DNA of 38,856 bases from a virus: IMG/VR virus record IMGVR_UViG_3300028162_000242, positions 1-38,856 of that record; one strand, written 5' to 3'. Made by a program: the position numbers and the translations under genes. Shown here in pieces: positions 2,585 to 20,203 of this stretch (its first letter is position 1; each line of letters starts with the position of its first letter). The notes below the pieces were generated by a model that saw nothing but the letters and a program-made list of their open reading frames with translations, was not told the DNA's origin and searched no databases.

Positions 2585-3031
2585 ATGATGAAAAAAACAC
2601 GCGAACAAATATCTAAAAATATGCGATCTGTTAAAAATAAGGACTCGAAAATAGAAATATTATTGCGTAAAGAATTATGGAATCGTCACTTGACATACAG
2701 GAAAAATGACAATAGTATTGTTGGTAAACCTGACATAGTTTATAAAGGATTAAAATTGGCTATATTTTGTGATGGTGAGTTCTGGCATGGATACCAATGG
2801 GAGGCAAAAGGAAAAGAAGAGCATAAAAGCAATGAAGAATTTTGGCAAAAAAAGATTGAACGAAATATGCAACGCGATAAAGAGGTTACCTCATTACTTG
2901 AAAGCCTGGGGTGGACAGTCTTACGGTTTTGGGGTAAAGAAATTAAAAAAAATGTTTCAGGATGTGCTGATATCATACAAAACAAGATAGAGGAGCTTAA
3001 AAATGGAAAACAAAAAGTACAAAATAATTGA
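2585..3031 (+). CDS. vsr: Very short patch repair (Vsr) endonuclease
   Basis: The protein is a full-length Vsr homologue of 148 residues. It begins with the family's TREQISKNMRSVKNKDSKIE stretch, continues with GKPDIVYKGLKLAIFCDGEFWHG carrying the catalytic Asp and the FxDGxFWHG signature, and ends with the conserved RDKEVTSLLESLGWTVLRFW. Vsr nicks next to T:G mismatches created when 5-methylcytosine deaminates, protecting the sites of a C5 methyltransferase. It is translationally coupled to the methyltransferase, whose ATG lies inside the vsr 3' end (29-nt overlap). Two adjacent ATG codons are possible starts. Confidence 0.92.
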   Translation: MMKKTREQISKNMRSVKNKDSKIEILLRKELWNRHLTYRKNDNSIVGKPDIVYKGLKLAIFCDGEFWHGYQWEAKGKEEHKSNEEFWQKKIERNMQRDKEVTSLLESLGWTVLRFWGKEIKKNVSGCADIIQNKIEELKNGKQKVQNN

Positions 3032-4130
3032 CTTGTTCGCAGGTATAGGGGGTATTCGTCGTGGGTATGAACTCACTGGAAGTTTTGAGAATGTCTTATC
3101 TGCAGAAATAGACAAGTATGCTTGTTTGACATACGAACATCTTTTTGGTGAAAACCCATACAATGATGTGACAACAGAGGAATTTAAGAGCAAGGTCAGT
3201 CAAACGCAGTATGATATATTGCTTGCAGGCTTTCCATGTCAGGCATTCAGTCGAGCTGGAAGACAGGAGGGTTTTAAAGATAAAACGCGTGGAACATTGT
3301 TCTTTGATATAGCAGACATCATAGATAGAACACGTCCAAAAGCATTTATGCTGGAAAATGTTGACAGCCTTCTTAGTCATGAAAAGGGCGCAACATTCAG
3401 AACAATACTAGAAGTTTTAGTAAATGATTTAAATTATAAAGTCTTAGGAGTAGAAAAAAACATATTAGGGGACTTGATTTATGACACGAAGGTCTTTATG
3501 AGGAATACAAGATACTTCGGTCTACCGCAAAACCGTCCAAGGGTTTACATAATGGGCTTTGATATGAAGCGGTATGCAAACTTCGAGAGATTCTTAAACG
3601 AAAAAAAACTCCCGATAGGCAGGAGCAAAGCTTCAATATACAAAGATTTGAACGACCTATTGGAATTTAACGCTGATATTGAATACTACATCGCAAGTGG
3701 CTACATGACTACTTTGGAAAAGCACAGAGCGCGTCACGAGGGCAAGGGCAACGGTTTTGGATACATGATTGTAAACTCACTGGATGTCAAGAATCCTTAC
3801 TCAAATACTATCCTTGCAACTGGCGGCTCAGGAAAAGAAAGAAACCTTGTTTATGATCCTAAGGAAGGCGTCGCAGGTCAAATCGTAAAAGGTAAGCAAA
3901 CTCCGATTAATGATAAAGGTATCCGTCACATGACTCCCAGAGAATGGGGCAAGCTGCAGGGGTTTATAAATTACGGCTTTATCCATGAGGGTAAGGATAA
4001 TTTCAGTTTTCCACCAGGAATTTCTAAGGCGCAACAATACAAACAATTCGGCAACTCGGTATCGATTACGGTTGTCGAGGAAATGTCCTTACTAATGAAG
4101 GAAATTTTGGCGGTTTTAGATGGGGAATAA
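3003..4130 (+). CDS. DNA (cytosine-5) methyltransferase, type II R-M
   Basis: The 375-residue protein has the C5-methyltransferase motifs in order: motif I DLFAGIGGIR (SAM binding, residues 10-19), motif IV GFPCQAFS with catalytic Cys79, motif VI ENV (Glu118), motif VIII near RNTRYFGLPQNRPRVY, a target-recognition region at about 190-310 and motif X KQFGNSVS near the C-terminus. It transfers a methyl group from SAM to a specific cytosine and so protects DNA from the partner nuclease. AGGAG precedes the ATG by 8 nt. It overlaps vsr upstream and the second methyltransferase downstream, so all three form one operon. The target sequence cannot be read from the protein. Confidence 0.93.
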   Translation: MENKKYKIIDLFAGIGGIRRGYELTGSFENVLSAEIDKYACLTYEHLFGENPYNDVTTEEFKSKVSQTQYDILLAGFPCQAFSRAGRQEGFKDKTRGTLFFDIADIIDRTRPKAFMLENVDSLLSHEKGATFRTILEVLVNDLNYKVLGVEKNILGDLIYDTKVFMRNTRYFGLPQNRPRVYIMGFDMKRYANFERFLNEKKLPIGRSKASIYKDLNDLLEFNADIEYYIASGYMTTLEKHRARHEGKGNGFGYMIVNSLDVKNPYSNTILATGGSGKERNLVYDPKEGVAGQIVKGKQTPINDKGIRHMTPREWGKLQGFINYGFIHEGKDNFSFPPGISKAQQYKQFGNSVSITVVEEMSLLMKEILAVLDGE

Positions 4131-4959
4131 ATTCAAATTTATTGATTTTTTTTCAGGCATCGGCGGATTCCATTACGGCCTTTCGCAGATAGGCGGCGAG
4201 TGCGTAATGGCAAGCGATACTAATATTGTGACGACCGAGACATATAAATTAAATTATGGCATGGTTCCGCATGGAGATATAAACGATATTAAGTCAGAAG
4301 ATATCCCTGACTTTGATATTCTCTGCGGTGGTTTTCCGTGCCAAGCATTCAGCGTGATTGGCCCACAGGGTGGATTTTCAGATCCTCGCGGAATTTTGAT
4401 TTTTCAAGTTTTCCGAATTCTTAGGGATAAGCAACCTAAGGCATTCATTTTAGAAAATGTAAGGGGCTTGATTTCGCACGACGGCGGTAAAACATATGAG
4501 TTCATTGTAGCTGAACTCAACAAGTGTGGTTACAACGTATCATGCAAGATACTTGAAGCCAAGAATTATGGACTGCCGCAAATAAGAAAAAGACTTTTTT
4601 TTGTAGGCATTAGAAAAGATTTTGAGGTACAGTTTGAGTTTCCCCAACCCATCGCATGTGATATATTACTCGGCGATATTCTTAAGGGAAAGACAAACCG
4701 GGATTATGCATTTACGATCAGAATCGGTGGTCGTAATTCCGGTATCAACAACAAGTACAATTGGGACAGTTACTATGTAGATGGAAAGGTGCACGCAATA
4801 ACACCAAAAGAATGCTTGCAAGTACAAGGGTTTCCTGAAGACTTCAAACTTGCTGGGAATCTTGATGAAAAATATAAACAGGTCGGCAACAGCGTGCCGA
4901 CCACGATAATTCGAGAGATAGGAAAAGAAATATTAAAGACAGGAATTTTCAATTGCTGA
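4120..4959 (+). CDS. Second DNA (cytosine-5) methyltransferase
   Basis: The 279-residue protein is a compact C5 methyltransferase: motif I FFSGIGGFHYG (10-20), motif IV GFPCQAFSVIGPQGGFSDPR with Cys74, motif VI LENVRG (Glu112), motif VIII NYGLPQIRKRLFFVG and motif X KQVGNSVP. The recognition region (about 180-230) is short. It overlaps the preceding methyltransferase by 11 nt, so the two are co-translated. Two C5 enzymes in one locus usually mean either an asymmetric target with one enzyme per strand, or two interleaved R-M systems. Its 3' end overlaps by 11 nt the end of the convergent minus-strand nuclease gene. Base composition here seems richer in G+C than the surrounding phage. Confidence 0.93.
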   Translation: MGNKFKFIDFFSGIGGFHYGLSQIGGECVMASDTNIVTTETYKLNYGMVPHGDINDIKSEDIPDFDILCGGFPCQAFSVIGPQGGFSDPRGILIFQVFRILRDKQPKAFILENVRGLISHDGGKTYEFIVAELNKCGYNVSCKILEAKNYGLPQIRKRLFFVGIRKDFEVQFEFPQPIACDILLGDILKGKTNRDYAFTIRIGGRNSGINNKYNWDSYYVDGKVHAITPKECLQVQGFPEDFKLAGNLDEKYKQVGNSVPTTIIREIGKEILKTGIFNC

Positions 4960-8153: not shown

Positions 8154-8188
8154 AAAAGTCTTCCTAAACTTATATGAGGTGTATTAAT

Positions 8189-10114
8189 TTGGGTAATAAG
8201 CCTAACACTTTTTTAGATTATCTTGAAAATAATATATTTTATGATAAGATATATGATTCTATTTTTTCATGGTGCAAAAATCACAAAAAACTATTGGAAG
8301 ATAGAGTAGATGGCTATAATGTTAGTTATATTTCTGAAATTGAAGACCTTGATCTGGATTATCAAAATGTATTTATTGACAGCAAAGAAGGTACAAAAAT
8401 TGAATTTGATATTACTATCGAAGTTACAGTAAACGTAGAAGGAGTTGCTGGCAAATACCAGGATAGGGATTCATACAGCGCTCGTCTATGGGTTATGGTT
8501 AGTTGTTCAGGCTCTTTAGGTAAAAAACTTAAAGATTTTTATATTATCGGAGTAGACGAATATATCAAAACAAAGCCAATAAAACCACTTTCTGGAGACT
8601 TTTATCCATATATCAAAAGAATTGATTATGATGAATATGCTAATGCAATATTAGAAAAGTATTACTTTAAATACCATCCAGAATCAAAAACAAATCCAGT
8701 ACCAATTAATGTGGATGAACTTGCTGCTAAAATGGGATTAACAATTCAAAACACTTCTATATCTAAAGATAGAAGTATATTTGGACAGATTTTCTTTGCA
8801 GATGTAGAAGTCGAGTTTTATAATTCTGAAAAATCAGTACTTGAAAAAAGAAAAATTAGCAAAAATACTATACTAGTTGATACTGAGGCAGCATATTTAC
8901 GTTCATTTGGATCTCGCAACATGACAATTGCACATGAGTGTGTACATTCCTATTATCACAGAAAAGCATTTTTATTCGCACGTATGCTAAAGCTAAAAGG
9001 GGATCTTCATTATATTGAATGTCAGGTAAATGGAGTAATGAAGAATGGTGATACAAACTCAACTGCCGAATGGATGGAAATACAAGCAAACGGTCTTGCA
9101 CCATACATACTTATGCCAAAAGAATCATTTGAAGCATATGCAAAAAAGTTATTCGAATTTTATAGTAAATCAAGCGGTTTAGTGACCTATACAATAAGAG
9201 AAATCATTGATAAACTTGCAGGCACCTATGAGGTTACTACATACGCTGCAAGAAAAAGACTTATTGATTTAGGCTTTGAACTTGCAATAGGAGCTTATAA
9301 TTGGGTTGATGGTCATTACGTAAAATCATATACATTCAAAAAGGGATTCCTCGAAAGTAATGAAACATTTACTGTAAGCTACAAGGACGTTTATAAAAAA
9401 ATTTTTACAAATCAAACCATATTAATGGCAGTTTACAATAATCAGTATGTCTTTGTAGATAATCACCTTTGTATAAATGATCCTAAATATATTGAAAAAA
9501 ATCAAAATGGTGAATTAATATTATCTGATTATGCATTGTATCATATGGACGAATGTTGCGTTAAATTTAGATATAATACGATTAAAGGTTTTAATTCAGG
9601 GTCTAGTTTAGGACTCATGTGTTATCTCAGTAGAGATTTGAGTAAAGAAATTGAATTTGATTTGGAGATAATAAATAATCCTGCTATTGTTCATGATTCT
9701 AAATTTATAGAAAGATACAGTATTCACTCGGAAAATGTTGCTGAAGTAGTAAAAGAGATCACTTTTATGTCTTTTGGAAAAATCATAAAATATTTGATGA
9801 AATATCTAAAAATAAAATTATGTGATTTGGAAGTTGATGCAGACCTTGAAGAAAAGACAATACGAAGATATACTAGTGGTGAAAATAAAAAACCTGATAA
9901 GAGAAGCGCTATTGCAATACTAAGGGCATTAAATCTTCCACCAGCCATATCGTCTTTAGCTTTGAAACAAGCTGGCATTGCATTTGTAAATGGAAATGAC
10001 GAAGACGATGCTTTGTTATGTGTGCTGATGACTTTAAGAAATGGTAGCGCAAAAGATGCCAATGATTTTATGATATCGATTCAACAAGGACTACTTACAA
10101 AAAATAAAAAATAA
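8189..10114 (+). CDS. ImmA/IrrE-family metalloprotease with C-terminal XRE-like domain
   Basis: The protein of about 641 residues carries a zinc-protease site AHECVHSYYH (HExxH, His254/Glu255/His258 counted from the upstream ATG), with a downstream Glu in WMEIQANGLA as probable third ligand. This is the ImmA/IrrE type that cleaves phage repressors. The C-terminus (about 545-615) looks like an XRE helix-turn-helix: KIKLCDLEVDADLEEKTIRR then KPDKRSAIAILRALNLP. Protease and DNA-binding parts thus seem joined in one chain, probably acting in the lysogeny switch. I prefer the TTG at 8189, because GAGGTG stands 7 nt before it; the ATG at 8174 has no ribosome-binding site. Two palindromes follow the gene. 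Confidence 0.8.
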   Translation: MGNKPNTFLDYLENNIFYDKIYDSIFSWCKNHKKLLEDRVDGYNVSYISEIEDLDLDYQNVFIDSKEGTKIEFDITIEVTVNVEGVAGKYQDRDSYSARLWVMVSCSGSLGKKLKDFYIIGVDEYIKTKPIKPLSGDFYPYIKRIDYDEYANAILEKYYFKYHPESKTNPVPINVDELAAKMGLTIQNTSISKDRSIFGQIFFADVEVEFYNSEKSVLEKRKISKNTILVDTEAAYLRSFGSRNMTIAHECVHSYYHRKAFLFARMLKLKGDLHYIECQVNGVMKNGDTNSTAEWMEIQANGLAPYILMPKESFEAYAKKLFEFYSKSSGLVTYTIREIIDKLAGTYEVTTYAARKRLIDLGFELAIGAYNWVDGHYVKSYTFKKGFLESNETFTVSYKDVYKKIFTNQTILMAVYNNQYVFVDNHLCINDPKYIEKNQNGELILSDYALYHMDECCVKFRYNTIKGFNSGSSLGLMCYLSRDLSKEIEFDLEIINNPAIVHDSKFIERYSIHSENVAEVVKEITFMSFGKIIKYLMKYLKIKLCDLEVDADLEEKTIRRYTSGENKKPDKRSAIAILRALNLPPAISSLALKQAGIAFVNGNDEDDALLCVLMTLRNGSAKDANDFMISIQQGLLTKNKK

Positions 10115-10119
10115 AAAAT

Positions 10120-10134
10120 GGACAACCCCTGTCC
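10120..10134. promoter_or_regulatory. Operator-like palindrome 1 (GGACA-N5-TGTCC)
   Basis: GGACAACCCCTGTCC is a perfect 5+5 inverted repeat, extended by T and A outside. A second palindrome with the same arms lies at 10239-10253. It sits just after the protease-repressor stop codon and before its terminator. Confidence 0.65.
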
Positions 10135-10168: not shown

Positions 10169-10194
10169 TAGAGGACTTTGTTCCTCTTTTTTTT
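10169..10194 (+). terminator. Intrinsic terminator of the protease-repressor gene
   Basis: AGAGGA and TCCTCT form a 6-bp stem around a 6-nt loop, running into eight T. It isolates the repressor transcript from the early operon promoter. Confidence 0.8.
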
Positions 10195-10238
10195 ATGCTT
10201 TATTGCAAGAAATAGTGAAAAAATAGAACGTTTTTGAC

Positions 10239-10253
10239 GGACAATACCTGTCC
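10239..10253. promoter_or_regulatory. Operator-like palindrome 2 at the early promoter
   Basis: GGACAATACCTGTCC has the same GGACA/TGTCC arms as palindrome 1. Its right end touches the -35 region that matches the -10 at 10276-10281, so a bound protein should block RNA polymerase. Confidence 0.7.
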
Positions 10254-10272
10254 ACACGACACGAAATTTATG

Positions 10273-10281
10273 TGTTATACT
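10273..10281 (+). promoter_or_regulatory. Extended -10 promoter of the early operon
   Basis: TGTTATACT is a TGn extended -10 element. The -35 position (about 10253-10258) is poor, as is common with extended -10 promoters. Predicted transcription starts near 10288, exactly where the inverted-repeat leader begins. Confidence 0.6.
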
Positions 10282-10287
10282 CATTTT

Positions 10288-10510
10288 GAATTAAGGAATA
10301 GCTATCTTAATTCGTACTTCACAGCCCTTGCTAAGCTGGTCACAATGAAGTACAAAATCACAATTTAATAATGCAGTTCGATCTATTGTGAAGAGAGGTC
10401 TGTAATTTGAAATGGAGCTTAACCGCCCTTCTTTTTGCTGACGCCTACGAACTGCCCACACTGCAAGAAAAGAGTATCTCCATTTTTCAAAAACAAATCT
10501 GAATTGGAGG
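10288..10510 (+). ncRNA. Structured 5' leader of the early operon, candidate cis-regulatory RNA
   Basis: Four inverted repeats follow one another from the predicted transcription start: GAATTAAG/CTTAATTC (10288-10295, 10306-10313); GTACTTC/GAAGTAC (10314-10320, 10347-10353) with an inner CAGC/GCTG; CACAAT/ATTGTG (10359-10364, 10385-10390), for which 10341-10346 offers a second CACAAT; and AAATGGAG/CTCCATTT (10410-10417, 10478-10485) with a nested TTTTTGC/GCAAGAA. CTCCA (10478-10482) can instead pair with TGGAG (10505-10509), which contains the ribosome-binding site of the next gene. The layout suggests a choice between exposing and hiding that site. The class is unknown to me. A 29-aa frame with CPHC (10435-10524, TTG start) also crosses it. 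Confidence 0.5.
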
Positions 10511-10520
10511 TATTTTTTTT

Positions 10521-11105
10521 ATGAAATTAACAAAGTCTGAAAAGAATCAAAACCCAAGACATTATTGCTATGGCTGTCCGAAAGAGTTGCTTAATGATCC
10601 TAATCAACCCTTAAAACACTATGTTGCTTTCAGAGATAAAGATGGTGATGTTAGGTATGAACCCTGTACTGAAGAGTATTTTCATAAACACAGAAATGAA
10701 GAGCGTAACGAAATACGCAGAAAAGACACGGAATCAAGATGCATGATTCCATCAAAAAAATTCGGACTTGTTAAGTGTCGAGCTGATTGCAACCAGTGTT
10801 CCAAAGTCAGAGATGGCTTTTCTATATCTATGGATTATATGCGCGAGAATTACGAGTTTGAGTTTGCTGATAGATCCTATGAAGAAGAACGCGAGAAAAG
10901 AGCTGAACAAACCCAAAGTGATTTTATTTGGAAGCTTGTGCGTGAGTTTAACGAAACTGATCAACTTATCCTTAAGTACTTCAACGATGGAAAAACAGAT
11001 GCTGAAATTGCTGAAGAAATGAAGAAATCAAGAAGTAGAATCCAAGAACGCAGAATTCAGCTTGTGCAGCTCTTGAAAGAAAAATTAAAAAAATACAACG
11101 AATAA
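10521..11105 (+). CDS. Sigma-70 region 4-like regulator with Cys-rich N-terminus
   Basis: This 194-residue protein has clustered cysteines (CYGCPKELL near 12-15, C74, then CRADCNQCSK at about 87-95) that could bind metal. A C-terminal helix-turn-helix (NETDQLILKYFNDGKTDAEI, then AEEMKKSRSRIQERR) resembles sigma-70 region 4. Similar proteins occur in early operons of Bacillota phages and integrative elements and are thought to regulate transcription. TTGGAGG lies about 10 nt before the ATG. It is the first gene after the structured leader, which may control its translation. Confidence 0.7.
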   Translation: MKLTKSEKNQNPRHYCYGCPKELLNDPNQPLKHYVAFRDKDGDVRYEPCTEEYFHKHRNEERNEIRRKDTESRCMIPSKKFGLVKCRADCNQCSKVRDGFSISMDYMRENYEFEFADRSYEEEREKRAEQTQSDFIWKLVREFNETDQLILKYFNDGKTDAEIAEEMKKSRSRIQERRIQLVQLLKEKLKKYNE

Positions 11106-18863: not shown

Positions 18864-18870
18864 TAAAGCA

Positions 18871-18990
18871 CCATAAAGAGTGTACGAGAGACTGGCTCAT
18901 TGACTACACAGCAACCTATCCGTCGGGTAAGGTGCTAAATCCAGAATGATGGCATTTTTTTTATTGGCCTGAAACTCCTCACTCTTATGG
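18871..18990 (+). promoter_or_regulatory. SAM-I-type riboswitch aptamer upstream of metK
   Basis: The conserved SAM-I elements appear in order and at the expected distances: AAGAG (18876-18880); the kink-turn GA...TTGA around GAG-ACTGG-CTC (18888-18898), with loop ACTGG for the pseudoknot; GCAACC (18911-18916); P3 ACCT.../...AGGT; then GGTGCTAAATCCAG (18931-18944) and a P4 arm CAG/CTG with GAAA after it. AAGAG to CTC spans the same 18 nt as in the well-studied SAM-I aptamer. P1 is short (CCATA/TATGG, 18871-18875 with 18986-18990) and its right strand lies inside the terminator. It senses S-adenosylmethionine and controls the SAM synthetase gene next to it. Confidence 0.85.
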
Positions 18991-19013: not shown

Positions 19014-19063
19014 GTTATATGAAAAAGCACAAACCACACACAAGTAAAGGGGAATTCAACAAA

Positions 19064-20203
19064 GTGAAAGTAATAACCAGTGAATCGGTATTTAGCGGAC
19101 ATCCGGATAAGATGTGCGATCAAATTAGCGATGCGATATTGGATGCTATCCTAGAACAAGATCCGAATGCAAGAGTAGCAGTTGAATCAGCTATCAAAGA
19201 TGATTTGGTTTTTATATTCGGAGAAGTTACAACTTCAGCAACCGTGAACTATAGTAAAATCGCTAGAGATACAATCAAAGAAATTGGCTATGATGAAGAA
19301 TTTATTGTCATGGAAAAGATATCAAAACAATCACCAGATATCGCTCAAGGAGTCGATGAAACAGGAAGTCACAAACAAGGTGCTGGCGACCAGGGCATGA
19401 TGTACGGTTATGCTTGTAACGAAACACCAGAACTTATGCCACTTCCAATTGTTGTTGCACATGATATTGCGAAACAGCTAGATTCACTACGCAAGAATAA
19501 GTACTCGCATATTTTTGGGCCAGACGGTAAATGCCAAGTATCTGTTAGATACGAAGACAATGAACCAATAGCTTATGAAACGATAATCGTGTCAGCACAG
19601 ACTAAACCAGGAGTAGAACTCTCTATTGCAAAACAAATTATCATGCATGAAGTTCTCCATCCACTTCTTGGTAAAGATTTATCAAATATCAATGTTTTAA
19701 TCAATCCTACTGGTGTTTTTGTTATAGGTGGTCCTTTTGGTGATTCCGGATTAACTGGAAGAAAGATAATTGTAGATACTTATGGTGGATACTCAAAGCA
19801 TGGTGGCGGTGCTTTCTCGGGCAAGGACGTAAGCAAGGTTGATCGTAGTGCGGCTTATTACGCGAGGTATGTAGCAAAAGCCCTTGTGGAGGCAAAATTA
19901 GCGGACAGGTGCGAAGTTTGCGTGTCCTATTCAATAGGAGTTGCTGATCCAGTTAGTTTATCAATAGATACATTTGGAACAAGCAAGTTGAATGACGTTG
20001 AGCTGCTTGAACTTGTAAAAAGTCATTTTAATTTTACACCATCAAATATAAGAAAAGAACTTGAATTCGAAAAAGTCAAATTCAAGTCCTTAGCTGCTTA
20101 TGGTCATATTGGTAGAGAAGATCTTCCAGTTCGTTGGGAACATGTAGAAGACAAAGCACAAGAACTTAGAGTTGAGCATGAAAAAACCAAAGGCTCTGCA
20201 TAA
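19064..20203 (+). CDS. metK: S-adenosylmethionine synthetase
   Basis: MetK makes S-adenosylmethionine from ATP and methionine. The product has the usual length (about 380 residues) and all signatures: KVITSESVFSGHPDKMCDQI at the start, the hexapeptide GAGDQG, GPFGDSGLTGRKIIVDTYG, GGGAFSGKDVSKVDRSA and a C-terminal REDLPVRWE. It appears intact. I choose the GTG at 19064, because it gives the family's normal N-terminus and AAAGGGG precedes it; the in-frame ATG at 19019 lies just after the terminator and would add 15 unusual residues. It is rare cargo in a phage. Neighbouring methyltransferases use its product. Its 3' end overlaps the HNH gene. Confidence 0.95.
   Translation: MKVITSESVFSGHPDKMCDQISDAILDAILEQDPNARVAVESAIKDDLVFIFGEVTTSATVNYSKIARDTIKEIGYDEEFIVMEKISKQSPDIAQGVDETGSHKQGAGDQGMMYGYACNETPELMPLPIVVAHDIAKQLDSLRKNKYSHIFGPDGKCQVSVRYEDNEPIAYETIIVSAQTKPGVELSIAKQIIMHEVLHPLLGKDLSNINVLINPTGVFVIGGPFGDSGLTGRKIIVDTYGGYSKHGGGAFSGKDVSKVDRSAAYYARYVAKALVEAKLADRCEVCVSYSIGVADPVSLSIDTFGTSKLNDVELLELVKSHFNFTPSNIRKELEFEKVKFKSLAAYGHIGREDLPVRWEHVEDKAQELRVEHEKTKGSA

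Follow-up and report, generated by a model that had tools for sequence, protein, structure and literature searches.

The window, which is the whole 38,856-nucleotide stretch of IMG/VR virus record IMGVR_UViG_3300028162_000242, contained an early-operon leader between an upstream regulator gene (8174–10114) and a gene for a sigma-like protein, whose TIGR02937 match lay below the cut-off (Table 1). Transcription was predicted to start at about 10288 from an extended -10 element, which the consensus scan passed over for want of a good -35 element. Two operator-like palindromes, GGACAACCCCTGTCC (10120–10134) and GGACAATACCTGTCC (10239–10253), flanked the early promoter region and are likely repressor sites, for example of the IrrE/M78-HTH-like protein encoded at 8174–10114. 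A terminator-like hairpin on the plus strand (AGAGGA..TCCTCT with T8, 10170–10196) probably ends the transcript of that gene. Elsewhere in the window, a SAM-I riboswitch (RF00162, 53.5 bits, 18868–18955) was located directly before a phage-borne S-adenosylmethionine synthetase gene (19019–20203). The genome also had several DNA methylase genes, and two overlapping C5 cytosine methylase genes lay in tandem at 3003–4130 and 4120–4959.

Table 1. Features of the leader and the gene behind it.
Feature	Position	Strand	Evidence
Putative extended -10 promoter element, TGT TATACT	10276–10281	+	sequence read directly
5'-terminal hairpin, GAATTAAGG..CTTAATTC (8-bp stem, 10288–10295/10306–10313)	10288–10313	+	fold, z=-5.0; some relatives only
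P1 arm: outer stem GTACTTCA (10314–10321)/TGAAGTAC (10346–10353), inner stem CAGC/GCTG, 3' bulge TCACAA	10314–10353	+	fold; relatives
PK1 5' arm, TCACAA	10340–10345	+	pairs with 10386–10391; compensatory changes, permutation test
Unpaired linker, ACAAnnnAATA; candidate site for a ligand or a tertiary contact	10360–10370	+	conservation
P2 stem, GCAGTTCG (10373–10380)/CGAACTGC (10448–10455), 8 bp, encloses central domain	10373–10455	+	repeats list, fold
PK1 3' arm, TTGTGA	10386–10391	+	compensatory changes, permutation test, independent DUF2800-type alignment
Decoy (D), GAAATGGAG, mimic of the Shine-Dalgarno sequence, pairs with the anti-Shine-Dalgarno strand	10409–10417	+	covariation
Sequestor/terminator-like hairpin, CTCCA..TGGAG, with A-rich:U-rich flank extension and T8 end	10467–10520	+	fold, A:S covariation
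Anti-Shine-Dalgarno strand (A), CTCCATTTT, common to two competing pairings	10478–10486	+	permutation test, covariation
Shine-Dalgarno sequence, GGAGG, 10 nt before ATG 10521	10506–10510	+	sequence
Regulated gene, 194-residue Cys4 and sigma-70 region 4-like protein	10521–11105	+	phrog_1740, E=6e-4; TIGR02937, E=1e-4

The fold of the whole leader, computed on 253 bases from 10288, had an energy of -60.8 kcal/mol, compared with -47.1 ± 4.4 kcal/mol for 200 dinucleotide shuffles (z -3.1), none of which was as good. The inverted repeats listed in an earlier note on this DNA were found at their coordinates in a fold exceeding chance. Of the stem lengths given there (8, 7, 6, and 8 bp), all four stems were present, and the third proved to be 8 bp instead of 6. 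The stems had also been described as consecutive, but the last one crosses the third, its 5' strand occupying the loop that an inner stem (10402–10405/10435–10438) closes, and the arrangement is therefore a pseudoknot.

Relatives of the leader and the conserved core

About 45 relatives were compared. When IMG/VR was searched with the sigma-like protein and a degenerate leader pattern, nine more distinct leaders of the window type were recovered (L006–L014), and L015 repeated L007; the chance matches of L016 and L017 to the first pattern were discarded. DUF2800-type leaders were taken from DUF2800 RNA (RF02960), listed in Rfam as a cis-regulatory orphan family: Rfam-positive RNAs of phage records and of genomes (L049, L063, L064, L065, L070, L072, L075, and L076; 98–148 bits) and weak matches (L050, L062, and L066; 31–34 bits). 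A genome-wide DNA pattern scan gave 21 matches, none with the leader architecture, the viral pattern CTGATCA..GCTCAA..TTGAGCAGG gave chance matches only, and a phage-record protein search with the sigma-like protein of the window gave no match.

The 5'-terminal hairpin had a counterpart with altered bases in L006, L007, and L014 and was missing in L008–L013. L011 and L012 had complementary but unrelated sequences in place of the outer stem of P1 (GTGTTT/AAACAC and GATAGTTCTG/CAGAATTATC, respectively), and the inner stem of P1 was changed to CAAC/GTTG in L010 and L014. PK1 showed compensatory changes at six of six positions among 21 leaders, with an arm spacing of 34–41 nt and 5'-arm types including TCACAA, TCACAT, TCGTAA, GTTCAG, GTTCGT, GCTCAA, and TCCGAT; its register in this comparison was set by hand, also in L011, where the segment from the alignment columns was too short. 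Double changes were found in five of the six pairs of PK1 in the DUF2800-type alignment alone.

The linker was located between the two PK1 arms. Positions A62, A63, A67, A68, and T69 of the aligned window were invariant in 19 leaders, and the linker was also conserved in the DUF2800-type alignment. Two copies of CACAAT had been read earlier as alternative partners. Only the first (10341–10346), which lay within the conserved pseudoknot with ATTGTG (10385–10390), was a conserved partner; the second (10359–10364) overlapped the single-stranded linker, and its pairing was not conserved. Within P2, the inner stem (GTAA, 10402–10405, with TTGC, 10435–10438) appeared as GTAAA/TTTAC or GCAAA/TTTGC in relatives, and the central domain held the decoy in its loop.

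A pattern describing the central core only, free of the anti-Shine-Dalgarno strand, the Shine-Dalgarno site, and PK1, was then searched in IMG/VR as a test on new loci. It gave 24 loci, which were partly related to one another and are not 24 independent events. An anti-Shine-Dalgarno strand pairing with the decoy at 8–9 of 9 positions was present in all 24 (18% in shuffled sequences), a perfect 6-bp PK1 in 22 (5% in shuffled sequences), and an open frame just behind the leader in all 24. This frame was not the Cys4 gene in L079/L081/L089 and L091.

A conserved protein frame across 10410–10520, which the earlier note had regarded as evidence against its proposal, was looked for and was absent. 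Indels between leaders were not multiples of three and an in-frame extension was present in L006 only, so the leader was considered non-coding. Upstream-ORF attenuation was also rejected: the AUG of the decoy opened frames of unrelated length in window-type leaders (M-E-L-stop in L012, nine codons in the window), and this AUG was absent in the DUF2800 type.

Competing pairings at the ribosome-binding site

CTCCA (10478–10482) and TGGAG (10505–10509), the Shine-Dalgarno strand (S), were located exactly where the earlier note had placed them. The anti-Shine-Dalgarno strand formed an 8-bp stem with the decoy (AAATGGAG, 10410–10417, with CTCCATTT, 10478–10485), and the hairpin with TGGAG (10462–10520, ending immediately before the start codon) had an energy of -17.5 kcal/mol (z=-3.8). 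This hairpin was not listed by the consensus terminator scan because its loop exceeds the limit of the scan.

Among 19 leaders, 97.6% of the cells in the D:A columns were paired, with double changes in three pairs, and none of 500 shuffles was as good for either the cells paired or the covariation score. The A:S columns were paired in 97.9% of cells, with double changes in one pair. The GGAG of the Shine-Dalgarno sequence was invariant in these leaders, and the GGAG/CUCC positions, which never vary, are silent on pairing.

The duplex energies of 11 representatives with their own and with swapped partners were compared in a permutation test (20,000 permutations), in which three control pairings gave no signal. 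The energies with own and swapped partners were -7.6 and -3.8 for PK1, -13.9 and -10.3 for D:A, and -17.3 and -11.5 for A:S, and no permutation was as good for any of the three. For the decoy with its local 3' partner (D local), the values were -6.6 and -4.9, and nine permutations were as good. Inside the DUF2800 type alone, the permutations as good numbered 4 for PK1, 8 for D:A, 1 for A:S, and 6 for D local of 20,000. Inside the window type alone, covariation was weak because of the few distinct sequences; this set was too uniform to prove the pairings, and the DUF2800-type set was therefore needed.

Covariation among homologous leaders, which had been suggested as a check, was thus found at both competing pairings, in agreement with the earlier proposals that CTCCA chooses between an upstream partner and TGGAG and that the structured leader is able to hide a ribosome-binding site. 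The pairings, PK1, the linker, and the position of the leader before the gene were established at the level of sequence comparison. The computed A:S energy was slightly to clearly stronger than that of D:A in 10 of the 11 representatives, as for a switch that is set kinetically or by a ligand.

Relation to RF02960 and to other leaders

At the gathering cut-offs of Rfam, nothing was found in the leader, and the SAM riboswitch was the only match in the window. At a lax threshold, RF02960 matched 10309–10458 over model positions 1–158 of 158 with 28.4 bits (E=0.0047), which falls below its gathering cut-off of 60.2 bits. A covariance model, R1, built from 22 DUF2800-type leaders only, recovered the leader of the window from end to end (10307–10520; E=8e-8, 35.1 bits, for a search of 260 kb) and seven more of the window type at their proper positions (L007–L010 and L012–L014), and missed L006 and L011 at their leaders. 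On unrelated loci, R1 gave no match below E=0.7; one misplaced match (E=0.01) was located in L006. The homology of the leader to DUF2800 RNAs was well supported by these comparisons of sequence, and since the Rfam cut-off was missed, the leader is a divergent relative and not a member. The earlier statement that no known RNA family explains the leader was wrong in part, given this sub-threshold relation to an orphan family.

The leader shared with DUF2800 RNAs the P1 hairpin with a 3' bulge pairing ahead in PK1, tested as a class feature, the linker ACAAnnnAAUA and the core CUGYAA..GAAAnGGAG (in full, CUGYAAnYYGAAAnGGAG), both seen in an alignment of the two types, and the platform of decoy, anti-Shine-Dalgarno strand, and Shine-Dalgarno site. 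Its subgroup differed in being A+T-rich, in the sequences of P2 and P3, in its own inner-stem arrangement, in a U6–U9 tract in all members, and in a sometimes present extra 5' hairpin or merged P1 arm. DUF2800 together with 'RNA motif' was not found in the literature searched.

The position before a sigma-like gene of the early operon was also common to both. Many DUF2800 RNAs were located directly before a gene with a Cys4 motif and a sigma region 4-like end, and the first gene behind them was homologous to the sigma-like gene (hhalign profile comparison, probability 99.3%, E=3e-20). A DUF2800 gene (PF10926) belonged to the operon of the window-type locus L015, and the early genes scanned in the window gave no DUF2800 match. 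In L007, L010, and L015, the leader stood before a different gene, whose 210-residue product had a sigma-70 region 4 domain. Since the same leader precedes unrelated first genes in these loci and in L079/L081/L089 and L091, it behaves as an independent module, moving separately from the gene behind it.

Homologues of the sigma-like gene in L101, L103, L105, and L107 had other leaders. In L101, L105, and L107 (about 1210–1521), another structured leader with GGCTCC facing a AAGGAGTC ribosome-binding site had no Rfam match and is possibly a separate unnamed class that uses a platform of this kind. A third kind, also with no Rfam match, preceded related genes in L068, L069, L071, and L103, and possibly L048; it contained a terminator (GGTCTGTG..CACAGACC-T5) followed by a hairpin hiding the Shine-Dalgarno site, such as GTCCTTCCGCC..GGCGGAAAGGAC.

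Proposed switch and its significance

The leader that opens the early operon is quite probably a cis-regulatory RNA switch, related by homology to the DUF2800 class and operating by competition among decoy, anti-Shine-Dalgarno strand, and Shine-Dalgarno site. P1, P2, and PK1 would form a compact core holding the decoy GAAATGGAG in its central loop. The anti-Shine-Dalgarno strand CTCCATTT, transcribed next, could pair with the decoy first, cotranscriptionally, leaving the site open (ON), or could pair instead with TGGAG in the hairpin that hides the site (OFF). Local closing of the decoy on itself would release the anti-Shine-Dalgarno strand and favor the OFF state, and a ligand or protein that stabilizes or melts the core would set the balance. 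The closed hairpin of window-type leaders, with its T6–T9 end, resembles an intrinsic terminator and may also terminate transcription. We infer the assignment of the ON state, the trigger, and the main output, translation versus termination, and the core would act as an aptamer.

A transcription attenuator, in which the U-tract hairpin is an intrinsic terminator, D:A is the antiterminator, and hiding of the ribosome-binding site is a by-product, is a real possibility. A tract of T6–T9 directly follows the hairpin in all window-type and most DUF2800-type leaders, and the U-tract is paired by the A-rich 5' flank. However, L050, L062, L064, and L066 had no U-tract and kept the hairpin pairing with the Shine-Dalgarno site, which in L064 also covered the start codon, and the conserved part of the hairpin was the Shine-Dalgarno sequence itself. 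Termination is therefore not the conserved output, and hiding of the ribosome-binding site is. Autogenous control, with the sigma-like protein of the first gene binding its own leader, would agree with the usual position of the RNA directly before a Cys4 and sigma region 4-like gene, and with the other sigma-70 region 4 protein encoded behind it in L015. It is unlikely, because the first genes behind the same leader differ and are non-homologous, and homologues of the sigma-like gene use the other leaders described above.

The put RNA of phage HK022 is a phage leader antiterminator. Like it, the leader is a compact structured RNA in an early operon right behind the promoter, and a processive antitermination RNA acting on RNA polymerase, not on the adjacent gene, would occupy such a place. 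Such an RNA would not account for the conserved competition with the neighboring Shine-Dalgarno site, a local feature by which the leader differs from put, and no sequence or structural match was found in Rfam; this reading is quite improbable. Chance complementarity, or an operator or terminator region having no RNA function, would draw on an A+T-rich region where short repeats abound (22 inverted pairs of six or more bases in 301 bases), but it was refuted by the covariation with controls, the recurrence out of sample, and the homology, and hardly deserves consideration.

Returning to the switch by competing pairings, SAM-I and preQ1 are examples of riboswitches with platforms of Shine-Dalgarno sequestration or of terminator and antiterminator. 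The leader resembles such riboswitches in that a compact domain with a pseudoknot precedes helices that exclude each other and share one strand; this platform, tested as a feature of metabolite riboswitches, was present by covariation. It differs in that the decoy is inside the folded core and any ligand is putative, and no known riboswitch family in Rfam matched it. Tentatively, the DUF2800-type leaders, including the divergent subgroup, may be a riboswitch class carried by phages, sensing either a small molecule or the state of the host and gating the first early regulator in temperate phages, among them Ca. Heliusvirales, which is widespread in the human gut.

The carriers include Ca. Heliusvirales gut phages. 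In the related family Ca. Heliusviridae, DUF2800 is among nine core genes, and the family was found in 190 of 196 people (PMC9226167). The present comparison extends the class to a subgroup that is not accepted by the Rfam model. The class would also gain a testable mechanism, in which the Shine-Dalgarno decoy inside a pseudoknotted core competes for the anti-Shine-Dalgarno strand just before the first early gene. If a signal is sensed, very common temperate phages would begin their early expression with a decision made by RNA.
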